Of a stretch of 64,000 nucleotides of DNA, positions 21,848 through 51,360 are shown one piece after another. The notes beneath the pieces were generated by a model. The model was not told the DNA's origin. It made no database searches and worked only from the letters and a program-made list of their open reading frames with translations. Position numbers and translations under genes: made by a program. Origin of the DNA: Spiroplasma sp. SV19 (GTDB taxonomy: Bacteria > Bacillota_I > Bacilli_A > Mycoplasmatales > Mycoplasmataceae); the NCBI RefSeq assembly GCF_030060925.1, contig NZ_CP045455.1, forward strand, positions 1,302,001-1,366,000, in the 5' to 3' direction. The stretch's first letter is position 1. Each line of letters opens with the position of its first letter.

Positions 21848-22233
21848 TGAGTTATGACAGAACTAGTTGCTATTAACGACAGTTAATAGAGGAAACTCCA
21901 CGCTCGCACAATCTGCGATGATTGTAGTGTTTGTGCTAATTTAATCCATAAGGTTAGGCATAAGGGATCCTTATGACGGCTGAAAAAAATCCTAAGTTAT
22001 TCATAATATGGAATTTTTTCTATAAAAGTGCCACAGAAACGAGTTTTTAAAGAAATTTAAAAAATGGAACGGGTAAACCCCACAAGCGAGAAACCTAAAT
22101 TTTGGTAAGGGAACTTCTTTTTTTCAAAGCAGAAGAGAATTAGAAGATCAATTTTAAAAAATTGATAGATAAATAACTAGTGTTTTATTTTATTAAATAA
22201 AAAACAGAACGTGGGTTATGATGTTATAACTTT
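21848..22233 (+). ncRNA. rnpB: RNase P RNA, B type
   Basis: The catalytic RNA that trims tRNA 5' ends. Conserved blocks are visible in order: GAGGAAACTCCACGCTCGC (21889 onward), GTGCCACAGAAACGAG (about 22028), GAACGGGTAAACCCCACAAGCGAGAAACC (22068-22095, read in parts) and ACAGAACGTGGGTTATG near the 3' end. The end helix P1 pairs AGTTATGAC at 21850-21858 with GTTATAACT at 22223-22231 (one G-U). Length about 386 nt. The first block reads GAAACTCC where most RNAs have GAAAGTCC. It follows gpsB, the ancestral order. Confidence 0.95.
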
Positions 22234-42042: not shown

Positions 42043-42879
42043 ATGACGGAAAATGAAGTAATTCGTAAAATCAAAGCGATTAGTACTGATGCTGACCATC
42101 GCTTTTCTTTTATTGCAAAATATATTTTACAAAATCTAATGCTTGTTCCTGACATTACAATCAAAGAAATGGCGGAATATACTTATACATCAGTGGCGAC
42201 AATTAATCGTTTTACTAAGTTTTTAGATTTAGATGGGTATAAAGAATTAATTCATATTATTAAATATTTTAATCATAATCTTGCTGGCGAAGAAAGTATT
42301 ATGGCAAGCGAAAGTAATAATGCATTAATGTTTAATACTTATCATAATATTATTCGTAGTTTACATGAAACGTTTCGGTTAGGATTAAAACAAAAAGAGA
42401 CCATTAATAAAGTAATTACTAATTTAAAAACAGCCCACCGAATTGTTATTTTTGCTGTTGGGGGAACTTATAATGTGGCTAAGGATTTTCAAGAAAAACT
42501 CCTTCGAGTTGGATTTAACATTATTGCTGTGAATGATTTTCATAATGGTTATTTTTTAGCGCAGCAGTTAAATGCTGATGATTTAGCGTTGTTTGTTTCA
42601 TATTCTGGTGAAACATTGGATTTAATTAAATTAGCAAAAATTTGTCACCAAAATCAAACCCCAATTGTTATTGTTTGTCGTCAATCAAATAATACCTTAT
42701 CTAATTTAGCTAATTATGAAATTACAATTAGTAGTAATGAATCAATTGAACGCTTAATTTCAACAACAAGTCGGTTTGCCTTGTTATTTGGGTTAGATAT
42801 GATTTATTTTTCGTTGTTAGCAACTGATTTAGAACATTATCGGCATGTTTTAGAACAAACATTAGTTCCAAAATTTTAA
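42043..42879 (+). CDS. murR: MurR/RpiR-family regulator of the MurNAc operon
   Basis: A 278-residue regulator with HTH_6 (ITIKEMAEYTYTSVATINRF, about 45-64) and SIS domain (RIVIFAVGGTYNVAKDF, then LFVSYSGETLDLIKLA). In Staphylococcus and E. coli, MurR-type proteins repress MurNAc genes and respond to MurNAc-6-phosphate. The genes downstream are murP, murQ and mupG, which makes this function likely. AAGGAGAACG precedes the ATG. It is 30% or so like the other regulator at 34244 by eye in domain layout, not measured. Confidence 0.82.
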   Translation: MTENEVIRKIKAISTDADHRFSFIAKYILQNLMLVPDITIKEMAEYTYTSVATINRFTKFLDLDGYKELIHIIKYFNHNLAGEESIMASESNNALMFNTYHNIIRSLHETFRLGLKQKETINKVITNLKTAHRIVIFAVGGTYNVAKDFQEKLLRVGFNIIAVNDFHNGYFLAQQLNADDLALFVSYSGETLDLIKLAKICHQNQTPIVIVCRQSNNTLSNLANYEITISSNESIERLISTTSRFALLFGLDMIYFSLLATDLEHYRHVLEQTLVPKF

Positions 42880-43007
42880 AATTTACAAATTTTGAGATTA
42901 AATTACAGATGATAAGATTTTTCTTGTAATTATGCTGCTTTCTTTTATGATAAAGATATGTATTAAAAATAATTAATATTTTTTAATGAGAAAGAGAGGA
43001 AATTAAA

Positions 43008-44729
43008 ATGGCAAAAGATCCGAAAAAGACAGCGAAAGACATTGCTGATATTGTCAAAGCGGATAATGTTGTCTCGTATACAAATTGTTTAACAAGATTA
43101 CGACTTAATTTAAAGCCAGGAGCAAATGTTGATTTAGAAAAACTAAAAACAACACCGAATGTGATGGGAATCTTAACACCCTCACCAACGGAGTTACAAA
43201 TTGTTTTAGGACCAGGTTTTGTTGCAAATGTGACTCAAGCATTTGGGAAACTAGTTAATGCTAATAAAACAGCTTATAGTGACAAAGATGGTTCTGGTTC
43301 ATTTGTAACAGCAGCCGAAGCAGCGCAAGCTGTTAAAGGGGAAATGAAAGCAAAACAAAATTGAGTACAAACTTTTTTTACTAAATTTTCAAGAATCTTT
43401 TCACCAATGATTATTGGGTTTATTGGGGCTGGGATTTTATCAGGAATTGCTGGAATTATGCAGTCAGTATATGGGGGTGTAATGGACACAAGTCATGCCC
43501 CAGCCGACGCAGTGTCATGATTTAATGCCTTAAATTTAATTTTAAATATTTGAAAAAATGCCTTCATTATTATTGTTGGTTGAAGAACTTGTGAAGTATG
43601 AGGCGGTAGTGGTGTTTTAGGAGCAATGACGGCTGCCATTTATTCACCCGTATTTGTAAGTAGTGTCATTCCAATGTTAGTTGTTGGTGATGCGAACCAT
43701 GTTAATTATTTAGGAATTAACATTAGTAACCCATTAACAAACTGATTAACAGTTGGATTCCGTCCGGAACTAGATAACGGGAAATTAGTGTTTGGTTATC
43801 CATCAGGAAATATTTTAGGAGCATTATTAACAGCAACAGCCGCGTTATGAATGGAACGTGGAGTTCGTAAGTTTATGCCCGGGGTTTTAGATACTATTGG
43901 GACACCAACCTTAGTGTTATTTGGTCTATTATTATTAAATATTTTCTTATTGATTCCAATTTCAGGATATTTATATGCGGCAGTGGCATGATTCTTTGCC
44001 CATTTATATACTAATCCGTTTGGAGCATTTGTTTTAGCAGCGATTTTCTTATTAGCTGTTGCCTTTGGTGTCCACCAAGGATTTGTTCCAATTTATGGTA
44101 TTTTAATTAAAGAAACTGGGGTTAATGGTTTATTCCCAATTTTAGGAATGGCCGGAATGGCGCAAGTTGGAACAGGGATTGCCTTATGAATTTTAGCAAC
44201 AAAAGGTAGTTTATTACGTCGTCAAATTCAAGGGGCGTTAATTCCAGCTATCTTTGGAATTGGTGAACCAATGATTTATGGGGTAACATTACCACGAATT
44301 CGTCCGTTTGTTACCGCATCAATTGCTGCTGGATTTGGTGGATTCTTTATTGGTGCAGTTTATATGTGAGGACATGTCACATTTGGATTAAATGCAATGT
44401 TTGGTCCATCGGGGATTTTAGCAACCTTTATGATGACAACAGATACCGGTAACATTCCGTTAGCTGTTGGAATTTATTTAGTGGGATGTGTTATTTCTGT
44501 TGTTGCCGGATGGCTTGTGACAATGTTTGGTTATTCGCGGATTGTCAAAGCCGGTGGTAATGATATGAAAGAATTATATCGTAAAGATGGAAAATACAAA
44601 TTATATCAAAAAATTTTATGAACATTAGCTTTTATTACTATTATTGGAATTTTTATTTACTGAACAATAGCATATTATCAATTACCAAAAGCAGAACGTA
44701 GTAAAATGGCCCATGTTAAAGTTGAATAA
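43008..44729 (+). CDS. murP: PTS EIIBC component, N-acetylmuramic acid type
   Basis: A 573-residue PTS permease of the glucose superfamily. The EIIB domain comes first, with the phospho-Cys27 in [10 protein letters not shown]; a linker with [10 protein letters not shown] follows, then the EIIC domain of about ten helices with [11 protein letters not shown] and the substrate loop near. No EIIA domain, so it depends on a shared EIIA. Substrate is inferred from murQ and mupG downstream: MurNAc or MurNAc-GlcNAc, phosphorylated on entry. AGAGAGGAAA precedes the ATG. Confidence 0.87.
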
Positions 44730-44752
44730 GAGATATATAGGGGAGAAATATT

Positions 44753-45658
44753 ATGCAAAAAATTGATTTATCAAAAATAGATACTGAACAACGAAATAAA
44801 AATAGTATGGAACTTGATCAAGCTGATACAATGGGAATTTTAACAATCATTAATAATGAAGATGCGAAAATTGCAACAGCAGCCCAAGCACAATTACCAA
44901 CAATCGCAAAAGTCATTGATTTAATTTTTGCTCGTTTTAACCAGGGTGGAAGATTAATTTATATGGGAGCTGGAACATCAGGACGGCTTGGAATTCTTGA
45001 TGCGTCAGAAATGGTGCCAACTTATGGTCTTAACCCTGATCAAATTATTGGAATTATTGCCGGTGGCGATGATGCCATTAGGATCCCGGCTGAAGGAGCC
45101 GAAGATGACCGTGACTTGGGGATGAATGATTTAAAAGCACTAAATTTGCAATCATTAGATACTGTGGTTGGGATTGGTGCTTCAGGACGAACTCCTTACG
45201 TTTTAGCTGGTTTAGAATATGCAAAAACAATTGGTGCTTTAGCAGTTGGGTTATGTATGACAAAAAATTCAGAAATGTTAACAGTTGCTGATGAAGTTAT
45301 TGCAATTGAAACAGGAGCGGAAGTTGTAACTGGTAGTACTAGAATGAAAGCAGGAACAGCAACAAAATTAGTATGTAATATGATTTCAACAACTTTAATG
45401 GTGAAATGAGGAAAAGTATATCAAAATTTAATGGTTGATTTGTTGGCGACAAATGAAAAATTAAAAGTACGAACAGCACGCATCGTTAAAGCTGTCACAA
45501 ATGCTAGTGATGAAGTTGTTGCTGAAACTTTAATTGCCGCAAACTATGCATGTAAAAATGCAATTATTATGATTTTAAAAAACGTTTCTTATGCTGAAAG
45601 TGAAACATTATTAGCAGAATATGATAATTTAGTAACAAAAGTAATTAATGATAAGTAA
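44753..45658 (+). CDS. murQ: N-acetylmuramic acid 6-phosphate etherase
   Basis: A 301-residue SIS-domain lyase cleaving the lactyl ether of MurNAc-6-phosphate to GlcNAc-6-phosphate and D-lactate. GAGTSGRLGILDASE (72-86) contains the catalytic Glu86 equivalent to E. coli Glu83, and VGIGASGRTPYV and VVTGSTRMKAGTATK are further signatures. One UGA Trp (VKWGKVYQNL) joins the two halves. It lies 23 nt after murP with GGGGAGAAA as ribosome site. Confidence 0.95.
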
Positions 45659-45670
45659 CAAATCTTTTTT

Positions 45671-45696
45671 AACATCTTAAAAATTAAGACGTTTTT
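45671..45696 (+). terminator. Hairpin between murQ and mupG
   Basis: AACATCTTAA/TTAAGACGTT stem with one mismatch, AAA loop and T-run; may give partial termination inside the operon. Confidence 0.6.
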
Positions 45697-45722
45697 TATT
45701 TTTTAAAAAGGGGAAAAAGAAA

Positions 45723-46763
45723 ATGCTAGGAATCTCAATTTATACAAACCAAGGTATTACAGTTGAAAAAAATAAAGAATACTTACAAAAAGCAGCGCAA
45801 GCTGGCTTTAAAACGGTTTTTTATAGTGGTCATTATTTTGAAAAGGATCATAGTACTGCTGATTTAAAAGTACTAATTAAATATGCTCGTGACTTGGGAC
45901 TATATACAATTTTAGATATTAGTAAAACTTATTTTAGTTATGATTTAGTTAATGATTATGCACCTGATGCCTTACGATTAGATTTTGGCTTTTCAACTTC
46001 AGAGGTTTTTGATCTTATTGATAACTTAAAATGTGATATCCATTTAAATGGCAGTGATAATCGGTTAAAAGATTTATTAGAAATTATTCAAAAACGAGGT
46101 TCGCAGCGATTGGCGATTTCTTATAATTTTTATCCTAAACCATATACGGGAATGGACATTAGTGAGTTTATTGTTCGGACAAAAGCATTCCAAGAATATG
46201 GTCTTCCAATCTTTACTTTTCTTGCTGCTTTAGAATATCCGCGTGGTCCCTTATTTCAAGGTTTACCAACTATTGAAAAATTCCGGCAAATGGCACCATA
46301 TTTACAATTACAATGATATCGTCATTTTGGGGTTGAAAATTGTATTATTAGTGATACAATGATTAGTGATTCTGACTTAAAGTTCTTAGTAGAAATTAAT
46401 AACAGTCCAGAATTGACAATTAGATTAGACTATAATAATTTACCAGAGCAAATTATTGCATTATTAAAAAACAAGGTTTATCACATTCGCAATGATGCTA
46501 ATAGCCAAGTTTTACGATTTGTGGAAAGCCGCGGATTGAATAGCAATAATGCAAATATTAAGCCATGGAATAATCAACATTTGATGGTTCCACGCTATAG
46601 TTTATTAATTGATAATTATTTGTATCCGCGTTATAATGGTGAAATTTATTTAACAAAAAGGAAATTATTACTTAATGGAAAAACAAATTTCATAACAAAT
46701 TTGAAAAAGGAAGGAATTTTAATTGATTTATTAGAACCTTCAAAAGCATTTAAGTTTATTTAA
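45723..46763 (+). CDS. mupG: MupG-type 6-phospho-N-acetylmuramidase (DUF871)
   Basis: A 346-residue TIM-barrel protein of the DUF871 family. It starts MLGISIYTNQG, with NFYPKPYTGMD (about 140-150) and a C-terminal subdomain with PRYSLLIDNYLYPRYNGEIYL. In Staphylococcus aureus MupG hydrolyses MurNAc-6-phosphate-GlcNAc and is encoded with murQ, murP and murR, the same set as here. So this cell likely takes up and breaks down the disaccharide of bacterial peptidoglycan. AAAAGGGGA precedes the ATG. Confidence 0.87.
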
Positions 46764-46958: not shown

Positions 46959-49493
46959 ATGTACTCAAAAGAATTAATTAATAGTTTAAATAAGGATATT
47001 AGAGAACATTTTCCCCATTTAAAAGAGATTGAAGAAGATTATAATATGGTTTTTGATGGGGTTTCAAGAATGGTGGTGCTTGATCGTTATGCTCAAAAAG
47101 ATAATGAGTTAAAAACATTAAAAGCAAATGATTTAGTATTGACCGTAATTAAAGATGACGGTTGGTTTCCAACCCGAGGAATTGGGAATGTGGTTGCTGT
47201 TGATCGTAAGAACGATACTGTTGATATCCAAATTGAAGCGAATTATGCCCATAGCATTGATCCAGATTTATTAATTAATAATTCAAATAATATAATTCGA
47301 AAAAACTTACATATGGTTGAAAAACCATTAGAAATCTTTTACGAACAAATTGCCTGAAGGGTTGGGAATGCACTTAGTAAAAATGAACAAAAACATAATA
47401 TTTATCGTGACCAGTTTTTTAATGAATTAAAAGATTTAAATATTATTCCTGCCGGACGTGTGTTATATGGTGCTGGAAGTAATAGTGATGTTACCTTTTT
47501 TAATTGTTTTGTAATGCCATTTATTAAAGATTCACGGGAAGGAATCTCAATCCATCGGAAAGAAGTTATGGAAATTATGTCGCATGGGGGTGGTGTTGGA
47601 ACAAATGGTTCAACATTACGTCCGCGCGGAACAGTGGCAAAAAGTGTTGGGGGTCGTTCGTCAGGAGCAGTCTCATGATTAAATGATTTATCAACATTAA
47701 CACATTTAGTTGAACAAGGGGGATCACGTCGTGGTGCTCAAATGATTATGATGGCTGATTGACATCCTGATGTGATTGAATTTATTATTTCGAAAATGCA
47801 AAACCCAAAAATTTTACGTTGATTAAAAGAAAATTCAAAAGATAAATTAATTCGTGATGAAGCAAGTCGCAAAATTAAATTTGTGCCATTATCAGAATTA
47901 GATCGCAATTTGTATGAATATGCTTTAAATAATGAAACTGAAATTGGGAATGACCGTGTTATTAATGAAACACGAATTAAGTTAGAAGAAGGTGGTGCTT
48001 GAGAAGTTAATAATCCTTCATTTTTATCAGGAGCAAACATTTCGGTAACTTTAACGCATAAATTTATGAAAGCAGTTGAAGATGATGCCGAATGAGAACT
48101 TCAATTCCCTGATTTAGATAACTATACTAAAGAAGAGAAAGCCTTGTATGATGAAAAATGAGCCGAAATTGGTGATATTAATGAATGACAAGCACTGGGA
48201 TATAAAGTTAAAACATATTACCGTATGCGTGCTCGTGATTTATGAGATTTAATTAATTTCTGTGCTAATTACTCAGCGGAACCAGGAATCTTCTTCTTAG
48301 ATACCGCAAATGATATGACAAATGCCAAAGCTTATGGAATGAAAGTTGTTGCGACAAATCCTTGTGGTGAACAACCATTAGCACCGTATTCGGTATGTAA
48401 TTTAGCAGCAATTAACTTAGCTAATTTTGTTAATAAAGCAACAAAAGAAATCTTATATGACAAATTAAAAACAACCGTTCAAACTTGTGTTCGCATGCAA
48501 GATGATGTAATTGATGCAACACCATATTTCTTAGAAGCTAACCAAAAACAAGCGTTAGGAGAACGAAGAGTTGGATTAGGAGTTATGGGATTACATGACT
48601 TGTTAATTTTCCATGGTGTGCGTTATGGAAGTAAACTTGGTAATGAAGTTGTTGATAAGATTTTTGAATTAATTGCTACTGAAGCATATCGAACATCAAT
48701 TGCTTTAGCGCAAGAAAAAGGATCATTCCCATTCTTAACATCACGGGAAAAATTTATTGAAACAGGATATATGAAAAAAATGTCAGCAGATATTCGTCAA
48801 GAAATCCTAAAGCATGGAATTCGTAATTCACACTTGTTAACAATTGCTCCAACTGGTTCAACAGGAACAATGGTTGGTGTTTCAACTGGGTTAGAACCAT
48901 ACTTTGGCTTTAAGTTTTATCGTTCAGGACGTTTAGGAAAAAACATTGAAGTTAATGCTAAAATTGTTGATGAATGATTAAAGTATAATCCGGAATATAC
49001 CGCTGAAACATTACCTGATATTTTTGTTGCCGCAATGGATTTAGCACCAGAAGATCATGCTGATACCCAATGTATTATTCAACGCTGAGTTGACTCGTCA
49101 ATTTCAAAAACTGTTAATGCACCACGTGGGTATTCGGTAAAAGATGTTGAAAAAATTTATACTCGTTTATATAAAGGTGGTGCTAAAGGGGGAACGGTTT
49201 ATGTTGATGGTTCACGTGATTCACAAGTATTGTCATTAACAACTGATGAAAATCATCCAGCATTAGAACAATTAAACTTAGATGATTTAGGTGTGGAAGT
49301 TGATAATCGCCCCAATAAAAAAGTAACCGAAAATGTTAAAACAGTTGGAAAATTACGTGGAATTAATCAAGACCGTAATATCGGAGCTGAAGTTGGTGAT
49401 GTTTGTCCAATTTGTAAAGAAGGAACTATGATTGATGCCGGGGGATGTGTTACATGTAATAATTGTAACGTCCAATTAAAATGTGGTTTATAA
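46959..49493 (+). CDS. nrdJ: Class II (adenosylcobalamin-dependent) ribonucleotide reductase
   Basis: An 844-residue reductase making dNTP precursors, one intact frame in code 4. Active-site residues are visible: redox Cys183 in FNCFV, the N-P-C-G-E motif with Asn467, radical Cys469 and Glu471, and second redox Cys480 in YSVCNLAAINL; TIAPTGSTGTMVG is the phosphate-binding loop. The C-terminus is a Cys-rich zinc-ribbon (Cys816, 819, 830, 833, 836, 842) typical of NrdJ. No small radical subunit gene is adjacent, so the radical source is coenzyme B12. A cobalamin riboswitch operon lies just downstream on the other strand. Confidence 0.92.
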
Positions 49494-49505
49494 TATTTAA
49501 TAGTA

Positions 49506-49537
49506 TTTAAAAAAGCAATTAACATTGCTTTTTTAAA
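49506..49537 (+). terminator. Terminator of nrdJ
   Basis: A perfect 14-bp stem (TTTAAAAAAGCAAT and its complement) with loop TAAC; 12 nt after the stop codon. Confidence 0.88.
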
Positions 49538-49641
49538 TTAAATCAACAATAACAAGCGTTACTTAGTGAAGTAAAGGGAATACAGTAGTAAAAAATTCTT
49601 CTTTTTACGAAAAAAGTATTTTATTTTACAGAAAAAAAGAG

Positions 49642-49897
49642 TATAATATATGTAATAATTATAAATTTATTTTAAAGAAGGATAAATGTTATAGTTTAAT
49701 AAGGTATCCTTTTTATTAAACCTCTATTTTTGATCAATAAAGATGATAAAACTATATATTAATGTAATAAATGTTTACTACCTGTTGATTATTTTGGATA
49801 AAAATAAATTGATATTAATTAGTTAGTTAGATTTAAAATAAATTTGTGATTATTGTGCAATAATGAAAAAATACCAGTTATTCAGCTGGTATTTTTT
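49642..49897 (+). ncRNA. Candidate orphan non-coding RNA
   Basis: A 340-nt gene-free stretch contains TATAAT at 49642-49647, a hairpin GTTTAATAA/TTATTAAAC (49694-49702 with 49713-49721) whose loop contains TATCCTT (49705-49711), and the complementary AAGGATA just upstream (49678-49684). The two pairings together make a pseudoknot. The plus strand then runs without a reading frame to a terminator hairpin with a T-run ending at 49897. No plus-strand gene follows for more than 1.6 kb, so it would not be a leader. Confidence 0.35.
49866..49897. terminator. Bidirectional terminator of the ECF gene
   Basis: A perfect 12-bp stem (AAAAAATACCAG/CTGGTATTTTTT) with an 8-nt loop that contains the minus-strand stop codon; T-runs on both strands. 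Confidence 0.85.
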
Positions 49898-50534
49898 CAT
49901 TATTAGCATCAGAATCAAGGTGGGTGAGTGGTGATGCTTCTAACTGTGGTTTGTTTTTATGAACGTATTTAATAAATTTTTTGTTAAATAAATAAGGTCA
50001 TTTGGGATATAATGTTTGCATTAATTTATAAATGATTGGATATAGCACGGCACAAATAACGGCGTTACCGGTTCCGTGAATCGCATCAAAGACAAGACCA
50101 TTAATTCAATATGCTAGTCCCACACTGGGGCTATATAAGACTGCTGTTTGGATTGCATACAATGATCCAAATAGATAGCCCATTAAGCCACAAATAATTA
50201 TCATCATTCATCATCATCAATAAACAAATTGTTTACAAAGAAACATAATAATGCCGTATAAGTTAAAAATAATAAAGTACATAATACTTCAATCAGCAAC
50301 GCCAAAGTAAACCATATTTAATGCACAATAAACATTGATAATCCCAAACCCAACTTCAAGGGTAAAGAAAATAATACTAAACATTAAAATGAAAGTAACA
50401 AATTCAATGTTTGGTAAAAAAGCAAAGGCAATTTTCAAAGCGAGAGCTAAACCACTGAAAAGGGCAATGACGGTCATTTTTAAGGTTACTTTTAGAGTTG
50501 AGGGTCAAATATCTTCTTTCTTAATTTTTTTCAC
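49878..50534 (-). CDS. ECF transporter S component, probably for cobalamin
   Basis: A 218-residue membrane protein with five or six helices. FLPNIEFVTFILMFSIIF (about 40-57) and VFDAIHGTGNAVICAVLY are typical of S components that end in a helix with an FDxxHxxGN pattern. The frame starts at GTG 50534 with no closer ATG. Ligand assignment is from context: it is the second gene behind a cobalamin riboswitch, following a DUF4430 protein, so cobalamin is likely, as for CbrT-like S components. Ends in a poly-acidic tail before a bidirectional terminator. Confidence 0.75.
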
Positions 50535-50550
50535 ATTTATTCACTCATTT

Positions 50551-51042
50551 CTAAGGGTTGGTTACATTATTAATAACAAAGCGAAAGACATTATCCGTGT
50601 TTGGGGTTAATCAAAGTAAATCAATTCCAACATTACAAGAATTGTTTGAACCATGACAATCCTTATTAATGTGTTCTGCATCGGGCTGATTGTTATCACC
50701 ACTTTGAATGTTAAAGTATTTTACTTTAGGGTCTAATTCAACCGTCCCAACTCGTTTGACAAAAGTACCAATTGTGCTAGAAGATAAACCAAAATCATTT
50801 GGATAGTTAACTAAAACATCAGCTAGATTAGCAGCATGTTGAACATTTAATCCTTTTGTAAAGTAAACACTATAATCTTCTTTTTGACCAAGAATAGTTA
50901 CGGTATAAGTACTTTGAGAATTGTTTTTACGATGTTCTTGATAGTATTTTGGAATATAATACAAGTTTAAAACAATAGCCGTTAAAAGAATTAACGCTAA
51001 GGGTAGATAACGTAAATATTTTTTTCATGAAAAATTTTTCAT
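50551..51042 (-). CDS. Membrane-anchored DUF4430/transcobalamin-like protein
   Basis: A 163-residue protein with one N-terminal membrane helix (KYLRYLPLALILLTAIVLNL, about 8-27) and an extracellular domain. YTVTILGQKEDYSVYF, then NLADVLVNY, GTFVKRVGTV and KYFNIQ resemble the DUF4430 beta-grasp fold that in transcobalamin and bacterial relatives contacts cobalamin. It is thus a candidate surface B12-capture protein. A pair of Cys near the C-terminus (KDCHGSNNSCN) could form a disulfide. AAGGAATT precedes the ATG. First gene after the riboswitch; the S component starts 17 nt later. Confidence 0.68.
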
Positions 51043-51143
51043 TTTTAATAATTCCTTTTAAAAATAGTGGTAATAAAAACCCATTCTTGAGGAAAACATT
51101 ATTATATTTATGAGAGGCAAAGTATTATTTAACGATAATAAAT

Positions 51144-51269
51144 TATTTACTCACAAATACCACAATCCCAGGGATATTTATTTTTACCAAGAGTTAACGG
51201 CAGGTCTACTGGCTTAGAATCATTTTACTAATTGTCTCTTCCCAAAAAAAGTTTTTCAGTGAGTAAATA
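51144..51269 (-). repeat. 11-bp inverted repeat linking the aptamer and its downstream leader
   Basis: On the minus strand TATTTACTCAC (51269-51259, in the riboswitch core) and GTGAGTAAATA (51154-51144, downstream of the B12 box) are perfectly complementary. Pairing would compete with the aptamer's CACUG region. Confidence 0.6.
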
Positions 51270-51360
51270 CAATGTTCATCATCATTACAGTTGCTGGGAC
51301 AGCTTGAGAATATTAACTCAATTCCCTTTTCAAAACATTCCTTAATGTTTACCGCTAATT
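51185..51360 (-). promoter_or_regulatory. Cobalamin (AdoCbl) riboswitch
   Basis: On the minus strand the conserved elements of the cobalamin aptamer occur in order: AGCGGT, AAAAGGGAA, the ATTGAG…CTCAAG hairpin, GCTGTCCCAGCAACTGTAA, CACTG, GGGAAG and the B12 box AAGCCAGTAGACCTGCC (51215-51199). It lies about 140 nt before the DUF4430 gene. In known cases the ligand turns transport genes off by termination or by hiding the ribosome site; which applies here cannot be read. A TTTATAAT -10 for its transcript is at 51395-51390. Confidence 0.93.

Follow-up and report, generated by a model that had tools for sequence, protein, structure and literature searches.

The 64,000-nt window analysed here covers positions 1302001-1366000 of the single-contig genome of Spiroplasma sp. 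SV19 (NZ_CP045455.1; 1,456,516 bases) and was translated with code 4, in which TGA encodes Trp. It carries a compact set of genes for the acquisition and use of cobalamin (vitamin B12). On the plus strand lies nrdJ, the gene of an adenosylcobalamin-dependent (class II) ribonucleotide reductase (46959..49493; 844 amino acids in an unbroken frame). Convergent to it on the minus strand, a cobalamin riboswitch (RF00174; 51182..51371) leads a membrane-anchored protein resembling DUF4430 and transcobalamin beta domains (50551..51042; 163 amino acids) and the S component of an energy-coupling factor (ECF) transporter, which belongs to the CbrT family (49878..50534; 218 amino acids, GTG start). A preliminary description, made from the sequence alone, had read these features as a B12 acquisition-and-use module at 46959-51360. 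Its content is supported by nrdJ, the RF00174 match, the transcobalamin-like fold and the CbrT-related S component, while its upper end has to be moved, as the aptamer reaches 51371. We found that this module is not the sole B12-regulated locus, since three further RF00174 riboswitches are present in the genome, and we compared it across 14 genomes of the genus, the source genome included, and scanned other families of the order for RF00174 as well.

The NrdJ translation scores 1313.7 bits against the NCBIfam model of B12-dependent ribonucleotide reductases, NF005991 (cut-off 854 bits), and 559 bits against TIGR02504, and it contains the NPCGE finger-loop motif and a Cys-rich C-terminus, which bears out the earlier assignment to class II. 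The absence of nrdEF, raised as a question in the preliminary description, was likewise borne out: neither the class I small subunit (nrdF/nrdB, PF00268) nor the class III enzyme (nrdD, PF13597) was found anywhere in the source genome, so that NrdJ is its sole recognised reductase. It is also the sole recognised B12 enzyme, because the B12-binding domain PF02310 was not found across the genus. In G001, G005, G010 and G013 nrdJ is 86-97% identical and the convergent arrangement is kept.

Regarding the minus-strand leader, already taken for a cobalamin riboswitch in the preliminary description, the covariance model RF00174 matches over all its positions (1-189) with 110.6 bits (E 7.5e-27), compared to a gathering score of 31.5 bits. 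Just 3' of the aptamer we noticed a candidate P13/L13 hairpin of the expression platform (51155..51179, minus strand), conserved in six genomes, whose loop CCCTGGG could by its sequence pair with the aptamer loop L5 (TCCCAG). After this CTGGG hairpin comes an alternative one that uses the same 3' arm, and in some relatives the equivalent leader has a predicted hairpin over the ribosome-binding site. A pattern scan revealed no GC-rich terminator in this leader or in the leader of the salvage operon described below.

The 218-residue protein by itself gave no Pfam or NCBIfam match. A profile of its family, searched against the PDB, had a single sequence match, chain A of 6FNP (ECF-CbrT; E 4.9e-16), and CbrT is a proven cobalamin S component (PMC5997447). 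The structural model aligned to 16 S-component structures, CbrT itself not among them, with Z of 10-12 in VIA-align, the next unrelated fold reaching 4.7; Foldseek returned weak S-component matches. The idea that this is an S component for cobalamin is thus upheld as to family relationship and fold, with ligand binding predicted. The ECF T subunit (PF02361) is encoded in all 14 genomes (E 3.2e-43 in the source genome), and the S component itself recurs behind riboswitches in many genomes of the order, spanning several genera and families. In G155 and G023 it carries a fused C-terminal domain, which is probably extracellular, and in G155 a lipoprotein, the fused S component and nrdJ follow each other in one run.

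For the anchored protein, AlphaFold yielded a model (pLDDT 87) with a long N-terminal helix (residues 6-41) and a beta domain, which Foldseek matched with probability 1.00 to 3u7z, 3kq4, 5no0 and 5np4. Intrinsic factor and the beta domain of transcobalamin are among these targets, and TM by target was 0.67-0.81 for the single-domain ones. The model therefore has the cobalamin-binding fold of transcobalamin and intrinsic factor that the preliminary description had looked for. The DUF4430 part of its label holds through the fold and through relatives, 4 of 14 aligned homologues matching PF14478 (best 1e-8), while the window protein itself has no Pfam match, PF14478 included. Like the intrinsic factor and transcobalamin beta domains and DUF4430 proteins in its predicted fold, it differs from transcobalamin and intrinsic factor in being a single domain on a membrane helix, with no alpha-barrel domain and with putative cobalamin binding. 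It is plausible that such an anchored protein substitutes for a BtuF-type binding protein.

The four RF00174 sites of the source genome score between 74.8 and 110.6 bits. One (1083204-1083389) precedes a 327-residue lipoprotein and a small membrane protein, another (928285-928451) precedes a second DUF4430-like protein, a lipoprotein and an ABC-ATPase-like protein, and the fourth (377426-377597; 76.5 bits), hereafter the deo aptamer, is located about 400 nt before the deoD operon. This salvage operon comprises, in order, deoD, a deoxynucleoside kinase (dNK), a transketolase, a KDPG-type aldolase and a nucleoside deoxyribosyltransferase (NDT), with Pfam matches to PNP_UDP_1, dNK, Transketolase_N and Aldolase and with Nuc_deoxyrib_tr slightly under the cut-off. 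Across the genus RF00174 was identified in 13 of the 14 genomes with a total of 34 sites, and its targets are DUF4430 plus S component, the conserved lipoprotein plus membrane protein, DUF4430 plus lipoprotein, and also deo, nrdFIE and nrdDG. The aptamer-salvage arrangement is present in nine genomes (G000, G002, G004, G005, G007, G008, G009, G010, G012), the operon being complete and of constant order in seven of them, with a broken transketolase in G012 and decay in G008. In G003, G006 and G013 a riboswitch precedes nrdF-nrdI-nrdE (class Ib). G003 carries a separate riboswitch before an intact nrdD-nrdG (class III; locus L048), whereas in G006 nrdD has decayed and the RF00174 match is truncated (L065 5001-8014). 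Nowhere in the genus do nrdF and NDT occur together. In other families of the order RF00174 is again found ahead of nrdFIE or the S component; in one such genome (G041; L096 2001-8347) the aptamer precedes membrane proteins without assignment and then a frame of 1495 residues. The ABC-ATPase-like protein downstream of the third riboswitch locus (L007 9305-10693; genome about 925304-926692) matches ABC_tran weakly and, on inspection by eye, lacks a proper Walker A motif.

In an alignment of the nine deo leaders, the aptamer, a P13/L13 hairpin and a terminator-like hairpin are largely conserved, with G008 keeping them least well. Here too the P13/L13 loop (CTGGG) could pair with an aptamer loop (CCCAG). 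The terminator-like hairpin, AAAGACG / CGTTTTTT, was found by alignment folding; a further hairpin overlaps its base, and conservation falls past that point. In 8/9 leaders the lowest-energy state is predicted to contain both P13 and the terminator-like hairpin. The layout of the leader suggests that B12 binding would favour the first hairpin and termination. All three elements are near letter-identical in the four nrdJ-positive genomes that have them, and core aptamer motifs are changed only in G004, G008 and G012, all nrdJ-negative. As to the origin of the switch, descent from an nrdF leader was set aside, as a tree of the aptamers groups those of deo with the uptake-operon aptamers of G003 and G006 (support 0.98) and not with the nrdF aptamers. 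This hints at an uptake operon as the source of the salvage switch, a reading that is only suggestive since the alignment is short (about 170 positions).

Three genome states exist within the genus: nrdJ alone, nrdJ with a class Ib enzyme, and no reductase found. The last applies to G002, G004, G007, G008, G011 and G012 (loci L041, L058, L049, L064, L124 and L063, in this order), in which no class I, II or III reductase was recognised at 95-99% completeness, and full reliance on imported deoxynucleosides is therefore implied for them. An intact uptake S component is found in 7/8 nrdJ-positive and in 0/6 nrdJ-negative genomes, with remnants only of S component and anchored protein in G008. Likewise, the 327-residue lipoprotein is open in 5/5 nrdJ-positive carriers and broken in all three nrdJ-negative ones (G002, G004, G007). 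These counts come from kin genomes that share ancestry and are thus not independent samples.

We consider it probable, at roughly three chances in four, that the window module belongs to a cobalamin-riboswitch regulon spanning the genome, through which B12 would repress its own uptake together with every B12-independent route to deoxynucleoside triphosphates (dNTPs). The CbrS-like anchored protein would capture cobalamin outside the cell and hand it over to the S component of CbrT type, whose partner would be the shared ECF module. Once enough adenosylcobalamin is present in the cell, the aptamers would bind it and switch uptake off, and the same ligand-bound state would turn off the B12-independent dNTP route as well, which is the deoxynucleoside-salvage operon in the source genome and nrdFIE or nrdDG in relatives. 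A drop in B12 would stall NrdJ, and the riboswitches would then release both uptake and fallback. We lean slightly towards a further step, that in a lineage without class Ib the cobalamin riboswitch is a change-over between making dNTP precursors with NrdJ and B12 and scavenging them, and that relatives which have lost NrdJ too depend on salvage alone, their switch being in decay.

What was observed is the identity of the parts by sequence and fold, the four aptamers, the order of the genes, and which genes are present, absent or decayed over the 14 genomes. From this we infer that the switches act in the OFF direction, that the ligand is bound and transported, and that the salvage operon is under their control; that these points are deduced counts against the regulon, as do several findings. 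G009 keeps nrdJ, while its S component is gone and its anchored protein is interrupted, the match spanning only 35 residues beside a transposase-like frame (L040 5333-6210). The PduO-type adenosyltransferase (PF01923) is absent in 14/14 genomes, the CobA type (PF02572) not having been searched, so that adenosylcobalamin would have to come from the host or from another enzyme such as CobA. The nine deo riboswitches probably go back to one inherited event, and the association with salvage therefore counts once. Five nrdJ-negative genomes retain the aptamer before the salvage operon with no B12 enzyme found there, which indicates that it can outlast the need for it, and of the roughly 400 nt between aptamer and deoD about 230 nt show little conservation, which leaves room for a second promoter. 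This gap, along with the deduced nature of the regulation, is the chief weakness of the proposal.

The last two findings would also fit a narrower explanation, in which B12 regulation is limited to the window module and the uptake operons and the deo aptamer is a relic or lone RNA, with deoD and the genes after it driven from a promoter of their own in the variable 230-nt stretch. A pattern scan of the gap did reveal promoter-like matches, at chance level. We regard this explanation as unlikely, because the leader elements are near-identical in the four nrdJ-positive genomes that have them while core changes appear in nrdJ-negative ones, all seven full-operon genomes keep the order aptamer-deoD-dNK-TKT-aldolase-NDT, and relatives have the same aptamer family ahead of other B12-independent dNTP enzymes.

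Far less credible are two explanations that touch the ligand or its effect. Were the riboswitches ON switches, B12 would activate salvage and uptake jointly; the direction of switching is indeed deduced, but control of uptake and of B12-independent isozymes is readily understood if the switches repress, as with Streptomyces nrdABS, and the predicted lowest-energy state of 8/9 deo leaders includes the terminator-like hairpin beside P13. Nearly all cobalamin riboswitches repress, which makes activation very improbable here. We consider it equally improbable that the true ligand of the S component is a different vitamin and that RF00174 stands in front of it for some other reason. The lack of an own family match and an S-component fold common to transporters of different vitamins would allow for this, but CbrT is the sole sequence relative in the PDB, the S component is found behind RF00174 in several genera and families, and intact copies are confined to nrdJ-bearing genomes.

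Apart from the cobalamin module, the window contains consecutive genes for an RpiR-type regulator, a phosphotransferase system EIIBC protein, a MurQ-like SIS protein and a MupG 6-phospho-N-acetylmuramidase (42043-46763). In a bacterium that has no wall, this row of genes suggests that sugar from bacterial cell walls is scavenged. An RNase P RNA of class B (RF00011) was identified at 21855-22223 on the plus strand (264.6 bits).

Under the proposed regulon, B12 appears to determine the source from which the organism takes its DNA building blocks, and one ligand is assigned both to an S component so far without a name and to the transcobalamin-like anchor. If this is true, nucleoside salvage joins the targets of cobalamin riboswitches and reductase loss is tied stepwise to host dependence. 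A survey from 2009 reported that nickel and cobalt use was lost in 88% of the Mollicutes examined (PMC2667541), and in the open-access literature we found no paper on a cobalamin riboswitch in Spiroplasma and no report of one before a salvage operon or with a deoxyribosyltransferase.

The closest known counterpart of the window module is the nrdJ-cbrS-cbrT-pduO cluster of Lactobacillus delbrueckii with its ECF-CbrT transporter (PDB 6FNP; PMC5997447). In both cases a class II reductase lies beside a CbrT-type S component that would work with a shared ECF module, uptake feeding a B12-dependent reductase. In contrast to L. delbrueckii, no pduO was found, the genes are convergent instead of forming one operon and RF00174 precedes the uptake pair; the similarity of the S component to L. 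delbrueckii CbrT is distant and seen at profile level only. In L. rhamnosus a DUF4430 gene adjoins rtpR, and a lipoprotein is mentioned as an extra part of a putative cobalamin ECF transporter (PMC9963975). On the regulatory side, an adenosylcobalamin riboswitch controls the B12-independent reductase nrdABS of Streptomyces coelicolor, according to the account of Borovok 2006 given in PMC4991794. As far as that account goes, the source genome resembles S. coelicolor in having a riboswitch on a B12-independent dNTP source in an NrdJ-bearing cell, and the nrdFIE and nrdDG cases of this order are of the same kind, whereas the fallback behind the riboswitch in the source genome is a salvage operon and not a reductase. 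A riboswitch that sets dNTP supply in a mollicute is known from Mesoplasma florum, where a 2'-deoxyguanosine riboswitch precedes a ribonucleotide reductase gene (PMC12268651); it acts at the reductase step, sensing a deoxynucleoside and not a cofactor. Set against these systems, the transport module of the window is of a known type, and the proposed extension of its regulon to nucleoside salvage would be the new element.

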